DNA from: a virus
Length of the DNA stretch: 49,782 nucleotides
Virus record (IMG/VR): IMGVR_UViG_3300037193_002459
Coordinates: 1 to 49,782 of that record
Strand: one strand, 5' to 3'
The notes under the pieces were generated by a model. That model was given only the letters and a program-made list of their open reading frames with translations. It ran no database searches and was not told where the DNA came from. Made by a program: the position numbers and the translations under genes. Below, piece by piece: positions 12,031 through 49,782 of this stretch (positions within the stretch are counted from its first letter, which is position 1; each line of letters begins with the position of its first letter).

Positions 12031-12345
12031 CTACCTGAACAGCCAGGCGAAGAAGCTGTCCTCGCGCCTGTCGTCCGGCCCACCCACCTCGACCTGGTAG
12101 TCGACGTCGATCTTCCGGCCCTGGGCGGCCGCGGCGGCGATGCGGTGGTTGCCCTGCCAGGCGACGAGCTTCCCCCCGTGACCACGCCCGACAGAGGGCC
12201 GGCCGCCGTTGCTGGCCAGGAAGCCGCGGTCGTATGTCCCGTTCGGGTGCCGCTTGTAGTACTCGACGGCGTCGGCGTCGTGGAGCACGGTGTGGACGTC
12301 GCGGGCGTCGATCCGGCGCCGCTCGGTCCGGTACTTCTTCCCCAT
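12031..12345 (-). CDS. ParB/Srx-like domain protein
   Basis: 104 aa. The core LVAWQGNHRIAAAAAQGRKI matches the ParB/sulfiredoxin-fold signature (x-GNHR-x2-AA), known in ParB N-terminal CTPase domains and in small phage or plasmid ParB-like nucleases. The N-terminus is basic (GKKYRTERRR) and there is no HTH domain, so it is not a full ParB partition protein. The gene lies just downstream of the TTCCCTG repeat array and the FtsK-like translocase, so DNA-site recognition or processing linked to transfer is possible. Confidence 0.65.
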   Translation of the reverse strand: MGKKYRTERRRIDARDVHTVLHDADAVEYYKRHPNGTYDRGFLASNGGRPSVGRGHGGKLVAWQGNHRIAAAAAQGRKIDVDYQVEVGGPDDRREDSFFAWLFR

Positions 12346-12365: not shown

Positions 12366-12461
12366 TTCCCTGTAGGGAACTTTCCCTGGCCGCTTCCCTG
12401 CGTGCTCCCCTGCGATGACCTGCAAAGACAACCTCAGGGAAGATCGCTACCCGTTTCCCTG
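12366..12461. repeat. TTCCCTG repeat array at 3' end of ftsK-like gene
   Basis: Perfect TTCCCTG copies start at 12366, 12382, 12394 and 12455, a variant TCCCCTG starts at 12406, and inverted copies are seen at 12374 (AGGGAA) and 12435 (CAGGGAA). Copies from 12382 to 12406 are spaced exactly 12 bp apart. The array covers the last codons of the FtsK-like gene and the leader of the ParB-like gene. The same heptamer flanks the repressor genes at 25871-25971. It could be a clt/TRS-type recognition site for the translocase or a repressor operator. Confidence 0.7.
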
Positions 12462-14605
12462 AGCCTGCGCTGCAGGGCCTCCTCGACGTCCTTCAGGCGG
12501 ACCACGCTCTGCCCGTCGCTCTTCCCGACGTCCACACCCTCGACGACGAGCGCAGCCTTCAAATCCTGGAAACCCCACGAGGTGTAGGTCTCCTCGTCCA
12601 GCTCGATGAGCCGGCCGAGCATCACCGCCGTCCGCACGTTCCGCTCCTCCCGCAGCGCGGCATGGATGTTCAGCAGGTGGTCCACCTCAGTGGGCTGCGC
12701 GCCGACAACGCTCAGGTGTCGGCGCCGCTTCCGACGCTCCTTCGCCCGCTCCGCAACACGGGTGGCGTCCTCACCGTCGACGAAGTGCGTCCGCACCGTC
12801 ACCGACGCCTGCCCCGGCGCCAGCGGCACACCATCGCCGGTCACGACCAGCGTGCCCTTGTCCAGACCAGCGCGGAGCAGGTGCGGCGCGGCACCCCCGT
12901 CGACGGCCTTGTCACCGAGCGCCATCCGGGACTGCTCCTCCGTGCCGAGGGCGAGGCTGGCGCGGATGTGCGCGCCCTCCCGGACCAGCTTCGGCAGGTT
13001 CTGGTTCGTCGGGTCCTGCGTGCCCTGCCACAGGATCACGTTCACCGCCCGCCCCTGGTTGTGCAGCTTCCGCGCCGCCAGGAAGTACCGGGAGGTGGCC
13101 TTCTGCCCGCCGTACGGGCGCTTGTGCTCGTCGACAGCCGGGCACATGAACGCGACCTGCGCCTCGTCGACGATCAGTTTGATCGGGTGGAACCCGGAAC
13201 CCGGCTTACGCGCGAGCTCGCGGGTCACGCCGTTCGGGTACTTCTTCTTGTCCAGCGCAGCCATGCGCCGCTCCATCTCCCGCACGCCCTCCTCGAGCAT
13301 CTCGGTGGCGGCGATGACGTGCTCGTCGGTCGGGCCCTCGATCAACACGGTGGCGAGGCCCTCGAACATCGACCAGTCACCGATGCCCTTGAGGTCAGCG
13401 ATGCGGAACTCGACGGAGGTGTCGAGCGCAACCCACAGCGCGAGGGCCCGCACCGCGGCCGTCTTGCCCTGGTTGGACAGGCCGGTCACGAGGAGGTGGC
13501 GCTGCTTGAGCGGCAGCGCGACGGCGTCACCGCGCAAATCCTCGCCCCACGGCGCGGCACCTGTGTACAGGTCGGCGGTCACGTCCTGGTCGATGACCAG
13601 CGGCGACGGGCCGATCGGGTCGTCGAGGGCACCGGAGTCGGCGATCCACAGCCGCACGGTGCGCGCCGCGACGACGCTGATGAACAGCTCGTACTCGTGG
13701 CGGTCGAGGTTCTCGGCGAGCTTGCGGCGCCGCTTCTGGATCTCGTCGGTGGACACCCCGGACGGGAGCACGATGTCGACCTCCACGCCGCGGCCCGCGA
13801 TCCGGATGGGGCTGAGCATGGCCGCGCCGGAATCACCCATCTCCTTGATGGCGCTCCGCAGTGTGGAGATGCCGAGGTCACGCAGCGCGGTGACAACCTT
13901 CGACGGGGTGATGGGCTCGTCGGCGGCGCGGGCCCGCTCCAGCGGGGTCAGCAGCCACACCGGCGGGTTCCCGACCCGCTTGCCCTCCCGGAACGCCAGC
14001 AGCAGCACCAGCGGCCCGACACCGGCCACGACCAGCGTGGCGGCCACCTTCGCCGCGGTGAACAGAACATGCAGCGCAACACCGACGCCGAACCACCAAT
14101 CCGTCCAGGTCAGACCGCCAGGGGAAGCCCACACGGTGATCCCTGCGATGAGGATGAGCAGCCACAACGCGGCGACGGCGATACCGGTGGCGGCGAGAAC
14201 GCCGAGCACCATCCGGGGCAGCTCAAGAAGCCGTTGCACGCGGGCGTCCTTGGCCTTCTCCAGCCGTTCTGTCCAGTCGGCGAGGGCTTCACGGTCGCCG
14301 GCGATGCGGGCGAGCCGGATCTGTTCGCGCAGGTGGCCGTGGGTGATGGCGGCGCCGGTTCGTCGTGCCCAGCTGACGCCGCCTTGCCCGGCCACCCATG
14401 CACCCCGCGCTGTGCCGCGGAGCACGGCACCGCCGGTGGTGGCGACCGGCCCGGCGCGGCGGACCACCTCAACCGTGCCGCGGAGGATCCGCCTGTCCAG
14501 GGGCCGCTGCGCGTCGTCGACGAGCTCGGCGTCGAACACCATGCGCTCGGCGGTGGTGTCCGCCCGCACCTCGAGGTCGGTGCTCGGCATGTGCTGCTCG
14601 CTCAT
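12434..14605 (-). CDS. FtsK/SpoIIIE (TraB-like) DNA translocase
   Basis: 723 aa. An N-terminal coiled region is followed by two or three membrane helices (about residues 132-162 and 170-206). The motor domain has Walker A GLSNQGKT (375-382) and Walker B LIVDEAQ (477-483), then the FtsK-type segment QGTQDPTNQNLP. A winged-helix-like C-terminal region (about 640-715) may read DNA sites, as the gamma domain does in FtsK and TraB. In Streptomyces plasmids and AICEs such proteins (TraB, TraSA) are hexameric pumps that move double-stranded DNA between mycelia. The surrounding small membrane genes and DUF2637 fit that setting. A chromosome-segregation or packaging role is less likely, because a terminase is present. 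Confidence 0.85.
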   Translation of the reverse strand: MSEQHMPSTDLEVRADTTAERMVFDAELVDDAQRPLDRRILRGTVEVVRRAGPVATTGGAVLRGTARGAWVAGQGGVSWARRTGAAITHGHLREQIRLARIAGDREALADWTERLEKAKDARVQRLLELPRMVLGVLAATGIAVAALWLLILIAGITVWASPGGLTWTDWWFGVGVALHVLFTAAKVAATLVVAGVGPLVLLLAFREGKRVGNPPVWLLTPLERARAADEPITPSKVVTALRDLGISTLRSAIKEMGDSGAAMLSPIRIAGRGVEVDIVLPSGVSTDEIQKRRRKLAENLDRHEYELFISVVAARTVRLWIADSGALDDPIGPSPLVIDQDVTADLYTGAAPWGEDLRGDAVALPLKQRHLLVTGLSNQGKTAAVRALALWVALDTSVEFRIADLKGIGDWSMFEGLATVLIEGPTDEHVIAATEMLEEGVREMERRMAALDKKKYPNGVTRELARKPGSGFHPIKLIVDEAQVAFMCPAVDEHKRPYGGQKATSRYFLAARKLHNQGRAVNVILWQGTQDPTNQNLPKLVREGAHIRASLALGTEEQSRMALGDKAVDGGAAPHLLRAGLDKGTLVVTGDGVPLAPGQASVTVRTHFVDGEDATRVAERAKERRKRRRHLSVVGAQPTEVDHLLNIHAALREERNVRTAVMLGRLIELDEETYTSWGFQDLKAALVVEGVDVGKSDGQSVVRLKDVEEALQRRLRETGSDLP

Positions 14606-14779: not shown

Positions 14780-15063
14780 CACGCCGCCTGCCGTTCCGGT
14801 GCGAGTGCTTCACGTGCCCGCCACGCGGCGAGCGTCGGCACGTCCGCCGGCCGGATCACCGCGACAGCAGCTGGGCGGGGCCGGGTGAGCTGGGCGGTGA
14901 TCGGGCGGATGAGGCGGGCGGTGGCGGGCGGGTCGGCCAGTAGCAGCCCTGCGATGAGGATGGCGAGGGGTAGCTGGGAGAGCAGGAAGGCGGGCGGGAT
15001 GGGGGTGAGCCACACCCATCCCGCCCATGCCGCGATGGCCGCGATGGGCAGCTGGGCGGTCAT
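14779..15063 (-). CDS. 94-aa membrane protein (Spd-like)
   Basis: ATG overlaps the DUF2637 gene stop (ATGA), which fixes the start; a longer in-frame reading has no such support. Two hydrophobic segments (LPIAAIAAWAGWVWL and LPLAILIAGLLLA) are followed by a basic, Pro/Ala-rich cytoplasmic tail. It is in the transfer operon between the DUF2637 protein and a second small membrane protein, and probably works at the membrane with the translocase. Confidence 0.6.
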   Translation of the reverse strand: MTAQLPIAAIAAWAGWVWLTPIPPAFLLSQLPLAILIAGLLLADPPATARLIRPITAQLTRPRPAAVAVIRPADVPTLAAWRAREALAPERQAA

Positions 15064-15866
15064 CGGACAGCTCCTGCCGCCCGCTCGCCGCCCGGCTCCG
15101 CCTGCTCGTCCACCCGCGGCATCCATCCGATCAACGTCAGGAGCCGCGACGCGCGAGGCGAGCCGATGCCGTACATCTCCTTGACCTCGTCGCGGGCGTA
15201 CCGCCGCCCGTGGGCGGCTTCGAGCGCCCGCAGGTCATCGATGACGGCGCCGTCCCGGGCGACATCAACGGCCGCCCGCCGGTTCGGCAGGCCGCCCGCC
15301 GTCACCGGCGCGTCGCCCGCCAGGCGGACACCCGCCGCCCGCTCCGCCTCAGAGGCCGCGTACAGCTCTGCGGCCTCCTCGTCGAGGGTGTCGGTGCGGG
15401 GCCCGTCGGTGGGCTGGGCGGCGCGGTTCCGGCCGTCGGGCGGCGGCGTTCCGCCCGGGCGGCCAGCGAGCACAGCAAGGTGCACGATCACGCCGATCAC
15501 GACCGCCGGGGCAGCCGACACGATCAGCGCGTCGACGCGCCAGGCGCCCACGAGCGCGCCGTGGTAGGCGTTCCCGAGGATCGTCGCGACGATCGCCCCC
15601 CACGCCGCCCGGCGGGCGTAGGTCACCGCCTCGTCGGGTGCCACGCCCCGCAGCCACACCCGCGTCGCGACGAGCGCAAGGACATCGACGGTGATGGGGA
15701 GCCCCCAGGCGACATGGATGTGCTCGCTGGTCCAGGGAATCGGGATGGTTGAGGTGACCCCGACGCGGCGGGCGAGGTCGGACAGGGCGGTGAAGCTCCA
15801 CACGATCGCGGTGGTGCCGACGATCGCGAGCCCTCCCCACGCGACGCGGTCGCGCTGGCCGTTCAT
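15060..15866 (-). CDS. DUF2637 membrane protein
   Basis: 268 aa. Four likely membrane helices fill the first ~135 residues, including the DUF2637-type segment HVAWGLPITVDVLALVATRV with an Asp in the membrane. The C-terminal ~130 residues are soluble and end in a helix-turn-helix-like segment (EVKEMYGIGSPRASRLLTLI). DUF2637 proteins are frequent in AICEs and plasmids of Streptomyces and relatives, next to FtsK/Tra and Rep genes, which is the strongest hint that this block is transfer-derived. Biochemical function is unknown. Confidence 0.8.
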   Translation of the reverse strand: MNGQRDRVAWGGLAIVGTTAIVWSFTALSDLARRVGVTSTIPIPWTSEHIHVAWGLPITVDVLALVATRVWLRGVAPDEAVTYARRAAWGAIVATILGNAYHGALVGAWRVDALIVSAAPAVVIGVIVHLAVLAGRPGGTPPPDGRNRAAQPTDGPRTDTLDEEAAELYAASEAERAAGVRLAGDAPVTAGGLPNRRAAVDVARDGAVIDDLRALEAAHGRRYARDEVKEMYGIGSPRASRLLTLIGWMPRVDEQAEPGGERAAGAVR

Positions 15867-18183: not shown

Positions 18184-19119
18184 ATGCAAATTGTCAACGG
18201 CGCCGCTCCCCGCCGTGATCTGCTCAGGCAGCTATGGTCTGCGGCTATGCAGCCTGTAGACCGCGACGACCCGCGGCCCCCGTACGTGAAGATCGCCGCG
18301 TCGATCCGGGCCGCGATCCTCTCGGGCGAATTCGAGCCCGGCACGCGGCTGCCCATCGGGGAGGACCTGGCCGAGTTCTTCGGCGTGACACGTTCGACGA
18401 TCGGCTCGGCGATCAGGGTGTTGCAGGAGGAAGGCTTCGTCCGGAGCCGCACCGGCAGTGGCGTCTACGTGAACAGCCGGGCGAAGATCCCTGTCGCTGA
18501 GGGCGAGCCGCACCCACTGCACGGCGTCGCGACGTTCCTGCACGAGGCCGGGCACCTGAAGAACCTGCCGCGCGCCGGGTGGCTACTGCTGGGGATCCGG
18601 CACCCGGAGAGCGTCGCCGAGCACTCGCTGCGGGTCGGCCTCATCGGCATCGTGCTGGCCGCCATCGAGGGCGCCGACCCCGGTCGCACGGCCGCGCTGT
18701 GCCTCATGCACGACGTGCACGAGACCCGGATCGGGGACATCCCGTCGGTCGGCCGCAGCTACGTCACCACAGCGAAGCCGCAGGCCGTGACCTCGCACCA
18801 GACGTCGGTGATGCCCGATGAGGTGGCGAAGGTGCTGCAGGACCTCACCGGCGAGTACGAGGACACCGAGACGATCGAGTCTCGGGTCGCCCACGACGCC
18901 GACAAGATCGAGACGCTGATGCAGGCCCGGGAGTACGCGCTGCAGGGGTTCGCCACCGAGCCGTGGTCGGACACCTCGATCCAGGCGCTGAGGACGGAGT
19001 CGGGGAAGCAGCTCGCGCAGGCGATCGTGGCCGGCGACCCGCACAGCTGGTGGTCGACCTTCGCGTCGAGCTACCACGAGCTGCGCGCCGCGACCCGGGC
19101 ACGTCAGGAGCGGCCATGA
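18184..19119 (+). CDS. GntR-type regulator fused to HD hydrolase domain
   Basis: 311 aa from ATG 18184; ATG 18247 (290 aa) is the alternative start. A GntR winged helix (about residues 32-98: EPGTRLPIGEDLAEFFGVTR) is followed by an HD-family metal hydrolase domain (112-300) with His147, His176-Asp177 and Asp238/240, like YfbR-type nucleotidases. Separate GntR (KorSA-like) and nucleotide-hydrolase genes occur in AICEs; here they are one polypeptide, suggesting that a nucleotide might act as effector. It is divergent from the transfer operon and probably represses it. The -10 box lies 6 bases before the first ATG, so the transcript may be leaderless. Confidence 0.75.
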   Translation: MQIVNGAAPRRDLLRQLWSAAMQPVDRDDPRPPYVKIAASIRAAILSGEFEPGTRLPIGEDLAEFFGVTRSTIGSAIRVLQEEGFVRSRTGSGVYVNSRAKIPVAEGEPHPLHGVATFLHEAGHLKNLPRAGWLLLGIRHPESVAEHSLRVGLIGIVLAAIEGADPGRTAALCLMHDVHETRIGDIPSVGRSYVTTAKPQAVTSHQTSVMPDEVAKVLQDLTGEYEDTETIESRVAHDADKIETLMQAREYALQGFATEPWSDTSIQALRTESGKQLAQAIVAGDPHSWWSTFASSYHELRAATRARQERP

Positions 19120-21053: not shown

Positions 21054-21151
21054 AGTCGTTGGGGCGGCATTTCGGGGCCTCTGGCCCATTCTCGCCCCAT
21101 TGATCTTCGGGAACGGATCTCACCGACTGTGTTTTGCCTGGTCAGATGGGG

Positions 21152-21193
21152 TGCCCCCGGCAGGACTCGAACCTGCGACCTAGAGATTAGAAG
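21152..21193 (-). other. attP: attP core: 3' half of tRNA-Arg(TCT)
   Basis: Read on the - strand this is the 3' half of a tRNA: anticodon loop CTTCTAA (anticodon TCT), TCTCT, variable region, T-arm GCAGG-TTCGAGT-CCTGC, acceptor strand CGGGGGC and discriminator A. The bases 5' of the loop (TTGAA) cannot pair with TCTCT, so the tRNA is not complete; identity starts at the anticodon loop. This is the classic structure of an integrase attachment site that restores the host tRNA 3' end. The tyrosine integrase lies 0.9 kb away. The surrounding 20965-21349 holds no convincing gene. Confidence 0.85.
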
Positions 21194-21349
21194 TTCAATC
21201 CCGCACGCGTTACCGGATGAGTCCAGATGTCATGTTGGGTCCATTCGTGCAGGTCAGACCCCGTGTCGGCGATCTTGACGCGTCGCGAGTTGTCACCGGG
21301 TGACATGAGGCCGTGGCCCATCGCCCGCCCCATCGCTCTCCGCGTGAGG

Positions 21350-22079: not shown

Positions 22080-23285
22080 CTACACCGCTCGCAGCCCGGG
22101 CCCGCCACCAGCGGCCCGGGCTGCCGTCACTGAGGTGGACAGCGCGGCCCGGACGTCGTCCCAGTCGTCCTCCGGGCGAAGGTGCGCGTAGATCTGCGTC
22201 GTCTCCAGGTCCTTGTGCCCGAGCAGCAGCTGCACCCGCTCCAACGGCACACCCTGCTGCACAAGCCGCGACGCGTACGTGTGCCGCAGATCGTGCGGAT
22301 GCACAGTCGGCACCCGCCGCATGAGCGGCTTCCCGTCCTTGCCCTTCTTCCCCGTCGGCTCCTCCGTGTAGAACCCGGCGAGCTCGATCGCATGCCGCCA
22401 CTGCCGCATGTCGAAGTTGTGCCCGTCGATCGGGGCGCCCTTCTCCCCGCGGATCAGCAGCCCGCCGGGGCAACGGCCAGCGCGGTGCGGCTTCCCGCAC
22501 GACGGCAGCGGCGGGTTCCGGTCCAGCCACTCCTGCAACAGCGCGGCGAGCTCGCCGCCGAGCGGGACGGTGCGCCGACGCTTCGACTTCGGGTACGGGC
22601 TCATCGACCCGGCGGGCGCGTCGTACGTCTCGACGACGTAGATGCGGCCTGCGGCGAGGTCAACGCGGTCGGCGTGCAGCCCGGTCGCCTCAGCCATCCG
22701 CAGCCCGGTCCCGAGCAGCAGCTCGGCCAGCACCCGCCACCTGCCCGACAGGTGGTAGAGGATCTTCCCGGCTTCGGCGTCCTCGAGGAACCGGGGCGGC
22801 TCCACCGGGCGGGTCGGCAGCTTCACCCCGCGGCACGGGTTCGCGGCGAGGATCCCCTCGGCGACCGCCATGTCCAGGCTGTTGGAAAGCCCGTAGAACG
22901 CGCGCCGGGTCACGGATGCGGAGCGGCGGCGGCCGAGCTCGTTCACCCAGCCTTGCACGTCGATGCGGGCGATCCCGATCAGCGGGGTCGTCTCCCAGCG
23001 GGGCCGCAGGTGCACCCGGATCGTCACGGCGTCGGTGCGGGCCGTGGAGGGTTCGACGGCGCGAGCGGCCTGCCAGCGGTCGGCCCACTCACCCCACTTC
23101 ATCCGGGCGGCGGTCGGGTTGGAGCGCTGCCCGCGCTGGACCTTGGCCTCTTCCTCGCCGGCCCACCGCATCGCCGCCGACTTCGTGTCGAACGTCTTCG
23201 CGACCTTCCGGCCGGAGGCGTTGCGGTAGCGGCCCCGCCACCGCAGCTTCCCCTCCGACGTGCGATACGACTCCGCAGACGGCAT
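22080..23285 (-). CDS. int: Tyrosine integrase
   Basis: 401 aa from ATG. An N-terminal arm-binding AP2-like beta region (residues ~12-45, GKLRWRGRYRNASGRKVAKT), a SAM-like core-binding domain (~65-160) and a catalytic domain with Arg196 (GTGLRMAEATGL), His331-x2-Arg334-His335 (HDLRH), His357 (LLGHKD) and the nucleophile Tyr366 (TQIYAHL). The length and motifs are those of actinophage and AICE integrases that use tRNA genes. The attP with a tRNA-Arg half site is on the far side of the converging HTH gene, a less usual arrangement because int normally abuts attP. Confidence 0.95.
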   Translation of the reverse strand: MPSAESYRTSEGKLRWRGRYRNASGRKVAKTFDTKSAAMRWAGEEEAKVQRGQRSNPTAARMKWGEWADRWQAARAVEPSTARTDAVTIRVHLRPRWETTPLIGIARIDVQGWVNELGRRRSASVTRRAFYGLSNSLDMAVAEGILAANPCRGVKLPTRPVEPPRFLEDAEAGKILYHLSGRWRVLAELLLGTGLRMAEATGLHADRVDLAAGRIYVVETYDAPAGSMSPYPKSKRRRTVPLGGELAALLQEWLDRNPPLPSCGKPHRAGRCPGGLLIRGEKGAPIDGHNFDMRQWRHAIELAGFYTEEPTGKKGKDGKPLMRRVPTVHPHDLRHTYASRLVQQGVPLERVQLLLGHKDLETTQIYAHLRPEDDWDDVRAALSTSVTAARAAGGGPGLRAV

Positions 23286-24296: not shown

Positions 24297-24346
24297 TCGG
24301 CAGAATAGAGGACCCTGCGCTCCCTAACGCTGCCGAGGTGCCGCGC

Positions 24347-25327
24347 ATGCTGCACGAACGCACCGTCCCACTCGCCGAGCTGGACGCCGTCGCCGTGCGC
24401 GAAGAGGACCACACGACGGTGCTGTACGCGGAGCACCTGACCCCAGCTCAACAGGCCGCACTGCGCCGCTACCTCCTCGAGAAGCTCGCCGCCGAGACCC
24501 ACCCAGCGGTCACCGTCACGGTTGCGGCCGGCGCGACAGAGCAGGTGCTGGCGGGGACGAAGGGCCGCCGGACCGTCGTGGCGCCGTACGGCCTGGCCGG
24601 GGCGTTCCTGTTCACCCTCCTCAGCGCGCTCGTCGCGTCGGTGTTCGTGGCGGCCGTGGTCGTCCTCCTCACCACCCCGCAGCTCGAGGACCAGGCGGCG
24701 GCGGGGACGCTGAGGGCGGCGGACGACCGCCCGTCGGCCGAGCATCCCCCGCCTGACCAGGTCCCGGTGATACCGGAGGCGGCGGCTGAGGCACCGGATG
24801 GCCCGATGCGGCAGGGGCCGGCGGGCGTGCCACCGCCGTCGCCTCTCGAGCTGCCTGTCGACGTGCTCATCGACGCGCCGGGCCCGGCGCGGGAGGCGGC
24901 TCCAACGGTTCCACCCGTCACGGGCCCGGCTGCCACCCCGCCAGGCGCTCCTGCCGTGCCCGGCGCGGCCACGCCTCCCGCTGCGCAGGAACCCGCATCC
25001 TCGGCTCCGGAGGAACAGGCATCGGACCTGCCCGATGTCGACCTGCCCGACATCGGCCTGCCCGGTGTTGAGGTCCCCGACATGGGCGGCCCTATCGATG
25101 TCCCCGACATCGAGCTGCCCGACGTCGAGCTGCCGAACGTTGACCTCCCGGACGTCGACCTCCCCGTTGTGCCGGACCTGCCCGACGTTGAGCTGCCCGA
25201 CGTCGACGTGCCAGACGTCGACCTCGACGACGACGAAGATGCCGAAGACGACTCAGAGCCCGCCGACGACGAAGAGAGCGACGACGAACCGGACGACGAG
25301 GGGGATGAGGAGTCGGACCGCAGCTGA
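24347..25327 (+). CDS. Membrane protein with acidic (D/E)LPDV repeats
   Basis: 326 aa from ATG with GAGG upstream. A ~75-residue soluble N-terminal domain (LYAEHLTPAQQAALRRYL) is followed by one membrane helix (about 83-108), a long Pro/Ala-rich stalk, then about ten 5-6-residue repeats of the form (D/E)-(L/V)-P-(D/N)-V, and a highly acidic tail. The topology suggests a cell-surface, extended repeat domain outside. It is directly downstream of an XRE regulator in the lysogenic region, so expression in the prophage and a role such as superinfection exclusion or host-surface change are plausible but unproved. Confidence 0.65.
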   Translation: MLHERTVPLAELDAVAVREEDHTTVLYAEHLTPAQQAALRRYLLEKLAAETHPAVTVTVAAGATEQVLAGTKGRRTVVAPYGLAGAFLFTLLSALVASVFVAAVVVLLTTPQLEDQAAAGTLRAADDRPSAEHPPPDQVPVIPEAAAEAPDGPMRQGPAGVPPPSPLELPVDVLIDAPGPAREAAPTVPPVTGPAATPPGAPAVPGAATPPAAQEPASSAPEEQASDLPDVDLPDIGLPGVEVPDMGGPIDVPDIELPDVELPNVDLPDVDLPVVPDLPDVELPDVDVPDVDLDDDEDAEDDSEPADDEESDDEPDDEGDEESDRS

Positions 25328-25340
25328 CCCGCGGCCAGGA

Positions 25341-25850
25341 TCAGGCCCCGTTACCGACCGATCGGCCACCCGGATTCTGCCCAGTTGCTGCATCAGTCTT
25401 CGACCACTCGAGCGTCACGTTCGTGGCAACCCCGGCCTGGCCGGGTTCCTCGCCGCCCCTGGCCCACGACTCGGCGACGGCGGCGCGGATCAACGCGAGG
25501 ATCGCGTCACGGAACCGCTCGGACAGCTGGTCGGTGCCGGCGGGGAGGAGCTGCGCGAGCATCGGCCCGCGGCGTGTCACGTCCAGGCCGAGGGACTCAC
25601 CGACGGACAGCAGGATCGTCGTCTCGTCGACCTCCAGCACCCGCGCCAGGACCCGGAGGGTGTCGGGCTCGGGGAAGTTCTTCATCCGGACTTGGGTGCC
25701 GAGTTGCTGCCACCGGCCCTTGGACAACGCTCCCTTGGAGCGGTGCTCGAGCTGGCCGTAGGACCATCCGCGGTCTTCCATGCGGGCACGGATGAGCTCG
25801 TGGAGAGGCAGCACTTTTTCACCGTCGCCCGTCAAGTCGCGTTCCGTCAA
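25341..25850 (-). CDS. XRE-family immunity repressor (CI-like)
   Basis: 169 aa from TTG 25850; no strong ribosome site is seen and a later GTG is possible. An N-terminal XRE domain (residues ~17-82: LIRARMEDRGWSYGQLEHRS and PDTLRVLARVLEVDETTILL) is followed by a helical C-terminal part (FRDAILALIRAAVAESW) that probably dimerises. It is divergent from a small Cro-like gene (26100) across a 250-bp region full of inverted repeats, which is the typical immunity-switch arrangement. It converges on the membrane repeat gene. Confidence 0.75.
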   Translation of the reverse strand: MTERDLTGDGEKVLPLHELIRARMEDRGWSYGQLEHRSKGALSKGRWQQLGTQVRMKNFPEPDTLRVLARVLEVDETTILLSVGESLGLDVTRRGPMLAQLLPAGTDQLSERFRDAILALIRAAVAESWARGGEEPGQAGVATNVTLEWSKTDAATGQNPGGRSVGNGA

Positions 25851-26053
25851 CGGTCAGTCTCTCACTCGTCTTCCCTGGTAGCACGCACCGCACCATCTGC
25901 TGCGCGCTTGACGTTGGCGCGCACTTTAGCGTCACGAGCTGAGTGCAACCTTCCCTGATCTGACCAGGGAAAACCCGTGTTCCTGCCCCTGGCAAGCGCG
26001 TCAACCGTTGGGCAGCGAATCGGCAAGCAGCTGTTGACGGTCGTGGCGTCAAC
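25845..26053. promoter_or_regulatory. Immunity switch operators
   Basis: Two kinds of inverted repeat with 7-N7-7 geometry are present: TTCCCTG at 25951 with CAGGGAA at 25965, and GTTGACG at 26033 with CGTCAAC at 26047. Extra half-sites are CGTCAAC at 25845 and 25999, CTTGACG at 25907 and TTCCCTG at 25871. They lie between the divergent repressor-like (25850) and Cro-like (26100) genes. The region is AT-richer than its flanks. Exact promoters are not assigned. Confidence 0.7.
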
Positions 26054-49553: not shown

Positions 49554-49782
49554 GTGCTGCCCGAGGTCACCGCCAAGCTCGACGCCGACGTCAGTGGTTT
49601 CATCGCGGCCTGGGATCGGGCCGCAGCCGCCGCCGAGCGGGCCGCTGCCCGCATCCGCGCCGCGCAGGCATCCGTCGCCGACGTCGACATCGACGCCGGC
49701 CGGTTCCGCGACCTCAACGGCGAACTGGAGCGGCTGTCCAGGACCGTGCGGCAGGTCGCCGACCAGATGCGCCAGTTCGGCA
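49554..49782 (+). CDS. Tape measure protein, 5' part (continues at base 1)
   Basis: The GTG at 49554 follows a GGGGGTGATCC-type site and opens the frame that is continuous with the ORF ending at 2105. The encoded start (LPEVTAKLDADVSGFIAAWD, then many Ala/Arg) is the usual N-terminus of actinophage tape measures. Bases 49642-49782 are the duplicate of 1-141, so the gene is 730 codons on the circle. Confidence 0.9.
   Translation, partial: MLPEVTAKLDADVSGFIAAWDRAAAAAERAAARIRAAQASVADVDIDAGRFRDLNGELERLSRTVRQVADQMRQFG
49642..49782. repeat. Terminal direct repeat from circular assembly (right copy)
   Basis: Identical to bases 1-141, as described for the left copy. The unique circular sequence is therefore 49,641 bp. 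Confidence 0.9.

Follow-up and report, generated by a model that had tools for sequence, protein, structure and literature searches.

A conserved repeat array beside an FtsK/TraB-type translocase gene of a temperate actinophage as a putative clt-like site

What does a dense cluster of short repeats at the 3′ end of a DNA translocase gene do in a virus genome? The 49,782-bp virus record analysed here over its whole length (the window) encodes an FtsK/TraB-type translocase, and an earlier sequence-only reading proposed that the TTCCCTG copies at the end of this gene form a clt/TRS-like site beside a TraB-like translocase, by analogy with Streptomyces plasmids. Our analysis leads us to consider it very probable that the array is a clt-like recognition or loading site, built of TRS-like repeats, for the FtsK encoded beside it; binding is inferred from sequence comparison, and there are no binding data.

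The two ends of the window are identical over an exact 141-bp terminal repeat (1-141 / 49642-49782), so the record is probably a complete circular genome. Its virion genes include terminase, portal, head protease and tape measure, and it also encodes a phage replication initiator with RecT. With an integrase and a repressor beside its terminase, portal and other head and tail genes, the window qualifies as a tailed temperate phage. Its virion genes and phage-type replication initiator set it apart from AICEs, which are defined by an integrase, Tra and a RepSA, RepAM or Prim-pol replication module and lack virion genes. Judged by these predicted genes, the record represents a temperate siphovirus with a circular genome, and the plasmid-type setting implied by the Streptomyces analogy does not hold. 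FtsK lies in a minus-strand cluster together with a DUF2637 membrane protein of the SpdB family, a family name (for intramycelial spread) that comes from Streptomyces plasmids; NZ_CP108827.1, a 13.5-kb circular Streptomyces plasmid, has spdB in the corresponding cluster and also carries an FtsK relative, an integrase, GntR and a primase-polymerase. Elsewhere in the window, a GntR-type HTH is fused to an HD-domain nucleotidase-like part (18184-19119), and a protein encoded just before the repressor region (24338-25327) has a hydrophobic stretch and a long PDVELPDV-type repeat with an acidic tail after it. A tRNA-like 3′ part (GGCAGGACTCGAACCTGCGACC...) at 21150-21215, about 0.9 kb from the integrase gene, is the probable attP; ARAGORN found no full tRNA in the window, and no Rfam family matched in it.

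Table 1. Coordinates of the array, its proposed reader and other features of the window
Feature	Position	Strand	Basis
Small ORF adjoining array	12031-12345		
TTCCCTG copy 1, overlapping left arm of dyad	12366..12372	+	
Inverted copy TAGGGAA, whose hexamer AGGGAA (12374-12379) forms the left arm of the central dyad, 2-bp spacer	12373..12379	-	
TTCCCTG copy 2, dyad right arm, first of three 12-bp-spaced direct copies	12382..12388	+	
TTCCCTG copy 3	12394..12400	+	
Variant copy TCCCCTG, third in 12-bp-spaced run	12406..12412	+	
Core motif TGACCTGC between repeats	12416..12423	+	
Exact inverted copy (CAGGGAA on +), overlapping ftsK stop codon	12435..12441	-	
TTCCCTG copy within final ftsK codons	12455..12461	+	
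FtsK/TraB-type DNA translocase, 723 aa	12434..14605	-	FtsK_SpoIIIE match
C-terminal winged-helix domain (about residues 641-723), proposed array reader	12437..12685	-	AlphaFold2, winged-helix matches
Wing hairpin, residues 693-703 (VGKSDGQSVVR); K695, D697 and S700 covary with repeat	12497..12529	-	
DUF2637 membrane protein, SpdB family	15060..15866	-	Pfam PF10935, E 3e-8
Tyrosine integrase of phage	22080..23285	-	
XRE repressor	25341-25850		
Three TTCCCTG (25871+, 25951+, 25965-) between repressor gene and rightward HTH ORF	25871..25971	.	

The array covers the final 28 bp of ftsK together with the interval that separates this gene from the next ORF (Table 1). TTCCCTG occurs ten times in the window against 3.45 copies expected from shuffles, and five of the ten lie inside the 96 bp of the array. 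Among 100 first-order Markov simulations of the window, none placed more than two TTCCCTG copies within 96 bp or clustered any heptamer beyond four copies; the array has five. The array noticed in the earlier reading is confirmed as real. The original description gave four perfect copies, a variant and two inverted copies, with 12-bp spacing over three units. The four direct copies, the variant, the inverted copy at 12435 and the spacing (12382/12394/12406) all stand. The other inverted copy, TAGGGAA at 12373, departs from the heptamer at one position and keeps the hexamer AGGGAA intact. Two further elements had been missed, a dyad AGGGAA-ct-TTCCCT at 12374-12387 and the core motif TGACCTGC.

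Exact TTCCCTG is rarely clustered beside other ftsK genes. Because each element has its own repeat, the exact heptamer is a poor guide, and we turned to k-mers scanned without bias. We collected FtsK relatives from viral contigs (L003-L009), GTDB genomes (L010-L089) and Pseudonocardiaceae (L211-L240), giving 114 distinct loci after removal of four duplicates, and assigned an array where a repeat had at least four copies. The unbiased heptamer scan showed an array where ftsK ends in most of the loci, and 106 of the 114 have an assigned repeat there (mean 7.7 copies), nearly all of them in other actinobacterial elements. The earlier reading had asked for the same array beside homologous FtsK genes, and arrays of matching geometry are what these loci show. 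Both the window and these 106 relatives thus have what characterizes clt/TRS sites, several short direct or inverted repeats overlapping or beside the translocase gene. Eight loci were set aside (L005, L006, L026, L211 and L237-L240), several of which have repeats of a different kind (CCTAAC in L005 and GGAGCA in L211, for example). A scan of viral contigs for TTCCCTGN5TTCCCTG returned at least 120 stretches, mostly chance occurrences, and none of those fetched had an FtsK relative.

The arrays share a common plan, in which direct copies 8 and 12 bp apart and a dyad with a 2-bp spacer are followed by a core, TGANCWGC, and then by outward-facing copies. Direct spacing of 12 bp is found in 92 of the 106 loci, 8-bp spacing in 83 and the 2-bp dyad (start offset 8) in 89; the window has the dyad, the 12-bp run and the core, without the 8-bp pair. 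The repeat itself varies while the geometry is kept, with the forms AGGGAG, GGGGAG, AGGGAA (window), GGGGAA, AGGGAC, CGGGAC, AGTGAG and GGTGAG. The proposal of a new specificity needs correcting in that many specificities exist across elements, AGGGAA among the rarer ones. The core occurs in 89 of 106 array regions; of 1633 random stretches taken from these loci, 301 contain it. It is kept across repeat classes, many Streptomyces elements have an inverted copy about 40 bp further on, and FtsK does not explain it. Ranked by best heptamer count alone, the stretch at the ftsK 3′ end came first in only 19 of 75 loci, and other stretches also reach high counts, perhaps as GC-rich coding repeats; the tests of geometry and covariation are stronger than this ranking.

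The array of the window faces the other way with respect to ftsK than the arrays of the relatives do, since its plus strand reads like their ftsK-sense strand. This indicates a role as a site, as opposed to coding or leader sequence. The orientation bears on a reading in which FtsK does bind the array, but for purposes other than transfer, these being only feedback on ftsK or on the small ORF downstream, or else phage genome partition. The array does lie between ftsK and that small ORF, and a second cluster of copies sits at a promoter region. Against feedback or partition, other elements have the opposite orientation and different downstream genes, and known clt sites share the position and make-up of the array (PMC3583192), so we regard this reading as unlikely, though it survives better than the other alternatives.

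We return to the clt-like reading and its proposed reader. The translocase has two N-terminal membrane segments, Walker A at residues 375-382, Walker B at about 477-481 and a predicted C-terminal winged helix. This layout is that of Streptomyces TraB, and it fits the architecture of a TraB/FtsK-type conjugal translocase, in which N-terminal membrane segments precede a RecA-like motor (Walker A and B) that is followed by a winged helix. The PDB match of the motor is E. coli-type FtsK (2iuu, E 0.005). An AlphaFold2 model of the C-terminal domain has a mean pLDDT of about 90-93 over fragment residues 31-100, and its structural matches are winged helices with Z 6-7. PDB searches with this domain matched only generic winged helices, and FtsK gamma itself is absent among the structural matches listed.

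On 66 thinned loci and with motor distance controlled, repeat distance correlates with C-terminal domain distance (partial r 0.21, a value reached in only 1 of 2000 permutations). Of all 65-residue blocks scanned, the last, residues 646-710, scores highest (0.205, next non-overlapping block 0.137). When every FtsK column is scanned, two wing residues come out on top, 697 at the wing tip for repeat base 1 and 695 for base 3. For the last base, residue 700 comes fourth; clade effects are strong at this base, and columns outside the wing do about as well because repeat class follows clades. All 70 loci with Asp or Glu at residue 697 have A as repeat base 1, and all 21 loci with G at base 1 have a residue other than Asp or Glu at 697; ten A-repeat loci lack Asp, Glu and Asn there. 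Base 1 changes 11 times on the motor tree, and independent pairs on that tree agree 5.9 versus 0.0 (median p 0.03 for the Asp/Glu trait, 0.06 if Asn is added). Locus L054 differs from its motor-tree neighbours L025 and L034 in both partners, with His versus Asn in the wing and GGGGAG versus AGGGAG as the repeat. Near-identical motors with a different wing and array give this trio the appearance of a natural domain-plus-site swap. The array and the winged-helix codons are only about 100 bp apart and can be inherited together, and such joint inheritance is favoured; as inferred from the tree, repeated independent changes reduce this objection and do not remove it. The wing covariation and the predicted winged helix support, in the absence of binding data, a reading of the repeats by the FtsK C-terminal domain.

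The distribution of the window's other proteins points the same way. FtsK is present in 118 loci, the GntR-HD protein in 41, the integrase in 39 and the SpdB-like protein in 4, while the XRE repressor and the small ORF have no counterpart in any. FtsK alone is common to all array loci and is therefore the sole candidate reader present throughout; within the sequence covered around these loci, neither the XRE repressor nor the replication protein is a shared reader of the arrays.

These data weigh on the view that the phage repressor or a neighbouring regulator uses the repeats as operators, like the repressor sites dispersed over some actinophage genomes. The three additional TTCCCTG copies, which precede the repressor gene in its upstream gap, could be cited for this view. 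The XRE protein, the downstream HTH stretch and the small array-side ORF have no relatives in the other array loci, all of which have FtsK, within a search in which 30 of the loci reach only about 1.5 kb beyond ftsK. The repeat, moreover, covaries with FtsK, and the switch region offers a better operator candidate of its own, four CGTCAAC/GTTGACG copies at 25846-26053 (GTCAAC hexamers at 25846, 26000, 26033 and 26048), which are likelier repressor/Cro operators than the TTCCCTG cluster. We consider operator function very unlikely, and binding by the XRE repressor alone, the outcome that would have refuted the original proposal, finds no support. The upstream cluster, also missed at first, reads TTCCCTG-N7-CAGGGAA at 25951-25971 and may be a second FtsK site or chance.

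Slightly less plausible again is a replication origin, with the array as an iteron set for a replication initiator. Iterons are likewise short repeats in direct and inverted orientation, and the array precedes replication genes in integrated elements. Those genes differ, however, between elements: the circular plasmid has primase-polymerase/DUF3631, and the window has an unrelated initiator of phage type that lies about 20 kb from the array. The covariation, moreover, is with FtsK. E. coli KOPS (GGGNAGGG) are similarly G-rich and are read by a C-terminal winged helix, and the repeats could by this likeness be KOPS/SRS-like guides that orient the motor along the whole genome, but the copies lie in one or two clusters with mixed orientation and are not spread with one polarity, which makes this the least tenable reading.

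For the preferred reading, a clt-like site of the adjacent FtsK, we propose a mechanism that goes beyond the observed array, its conservation, its geometry, its covariation with the wing and its occurrence in tailed phages. The C-terminal winged helix of each FtsK subunit would read one repeat, [A/G]GGGA[G/A] in most elements and AGGGAA in the window, mainly through wing residues K695, D697 and S700. Several subunits would be brought together by the constant arrangement of direct and inverted copies, which would so place the hexameric motor on the element's own DNA, and the loaded motor could then pump this DNA across a membrane, a septum or cell contacts, with the SpdB-like protein helping conjugal or intramycelial spread of phage or prophage DNA. 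Physical binding, hexamer loading and use in transfer with SpdB-like help are inferences only, and for transfer of double-stranded DNA by FtsK, which rests on analogy, we see about an even chance.

The module is not confined to the window. Four further FtsK contigs have virion genes, and all four match integrase families: G300/L003 (major head protein, head-tail adaptor) and G306/L009 (terminase, head decoration) with AGGGAG arrays, G302/L005 (portal, terminase, head) with CCTAAC repeats, and G303/L006 (portal, head, protease) with weaker CTAAC copies. The IMG/VR contigs L004, L007 and L008 were left out as phages, their terminase match being weak or absent, and INPHARED phage genomes held no detectable relative of the window FtsK. 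Since the module is present in at least five integrase-bearing tailed phages, spread by virions and spread by conjugation may go together in some actinophages; that these phages transfer by conjugation is an inference, and no experiment shows it. It remains a tentative idea, somewhat short of an even chance, that a class of integrating tailed actinophages carries a working double-stranded DNA conjugation module and that wing-repeat pairs form a readable recognition code. If this is true, a translocase, a spread protein and a docking array would let a phage genome move between cells or through mycelium without virions. On the point made by Choufa et al., these arrays, and the way in which they covary with the FtsK wing, suggest what the deciding factor is and open it to testing from sequence in more than 100 elements.

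Among known systems, the clt of pWTY27 spans the last 16 bp of traA and 159 bp beyond and has 7-bp repeats bound by TraA (PMC3583192). Like the array described here, it overlaps the last tra codons and adjacent non-coding DNA and has several 7-bp direct and inverted repeats; TraA, which binds clt, is likewise FtsK-like, with two membrane segments. The systems differ in repeat sequence (TGACACC/CCCGCCC versus AGGGAA) and in setting, pWTY27 being a plasmid for which binding and transfer have been shown. For pSVH1, as far as Vogelmann 2011 is relayed in PMC3583192 and PMC4170104, TraB recognizes 8-bp repeats, using helix alpha-3 within the winged helix at its C-terminus. Short repeats beside the translocase gene are common ground, and reading by the C-terminal winged helix, inferred for the array described here, would be so too; the 8-bp repeats have another sequence and helix alpha-3 is credited, whereas covariation here falls on the wing and the window is a phage. 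AICEs (PMC3218068, PMC9513070) have the closest FtsK relatives, GntR and SpdB-type genes and an integrase, and host most of the arrays found, in contrast to the window with its virion genes and phage replication module; for the type AICE, pSAM2, no clt is described (PMC9513070). The Streptomyces plasmid-phage pZL12, to the extent that Zhong 2010 is summarized in PMC3583192, is reported to have both transfer genes and a lytic phage cycle; it is a linear plasmid-phage with tra and adjacent genes, unlike the integrase-bearing temperate phage of the window with its AICE-type FtsK and array. New in relation to these systems is a family-wide recognition array for AICE-type FtsK, its binding inferred, that is found in at least five tailed phages.
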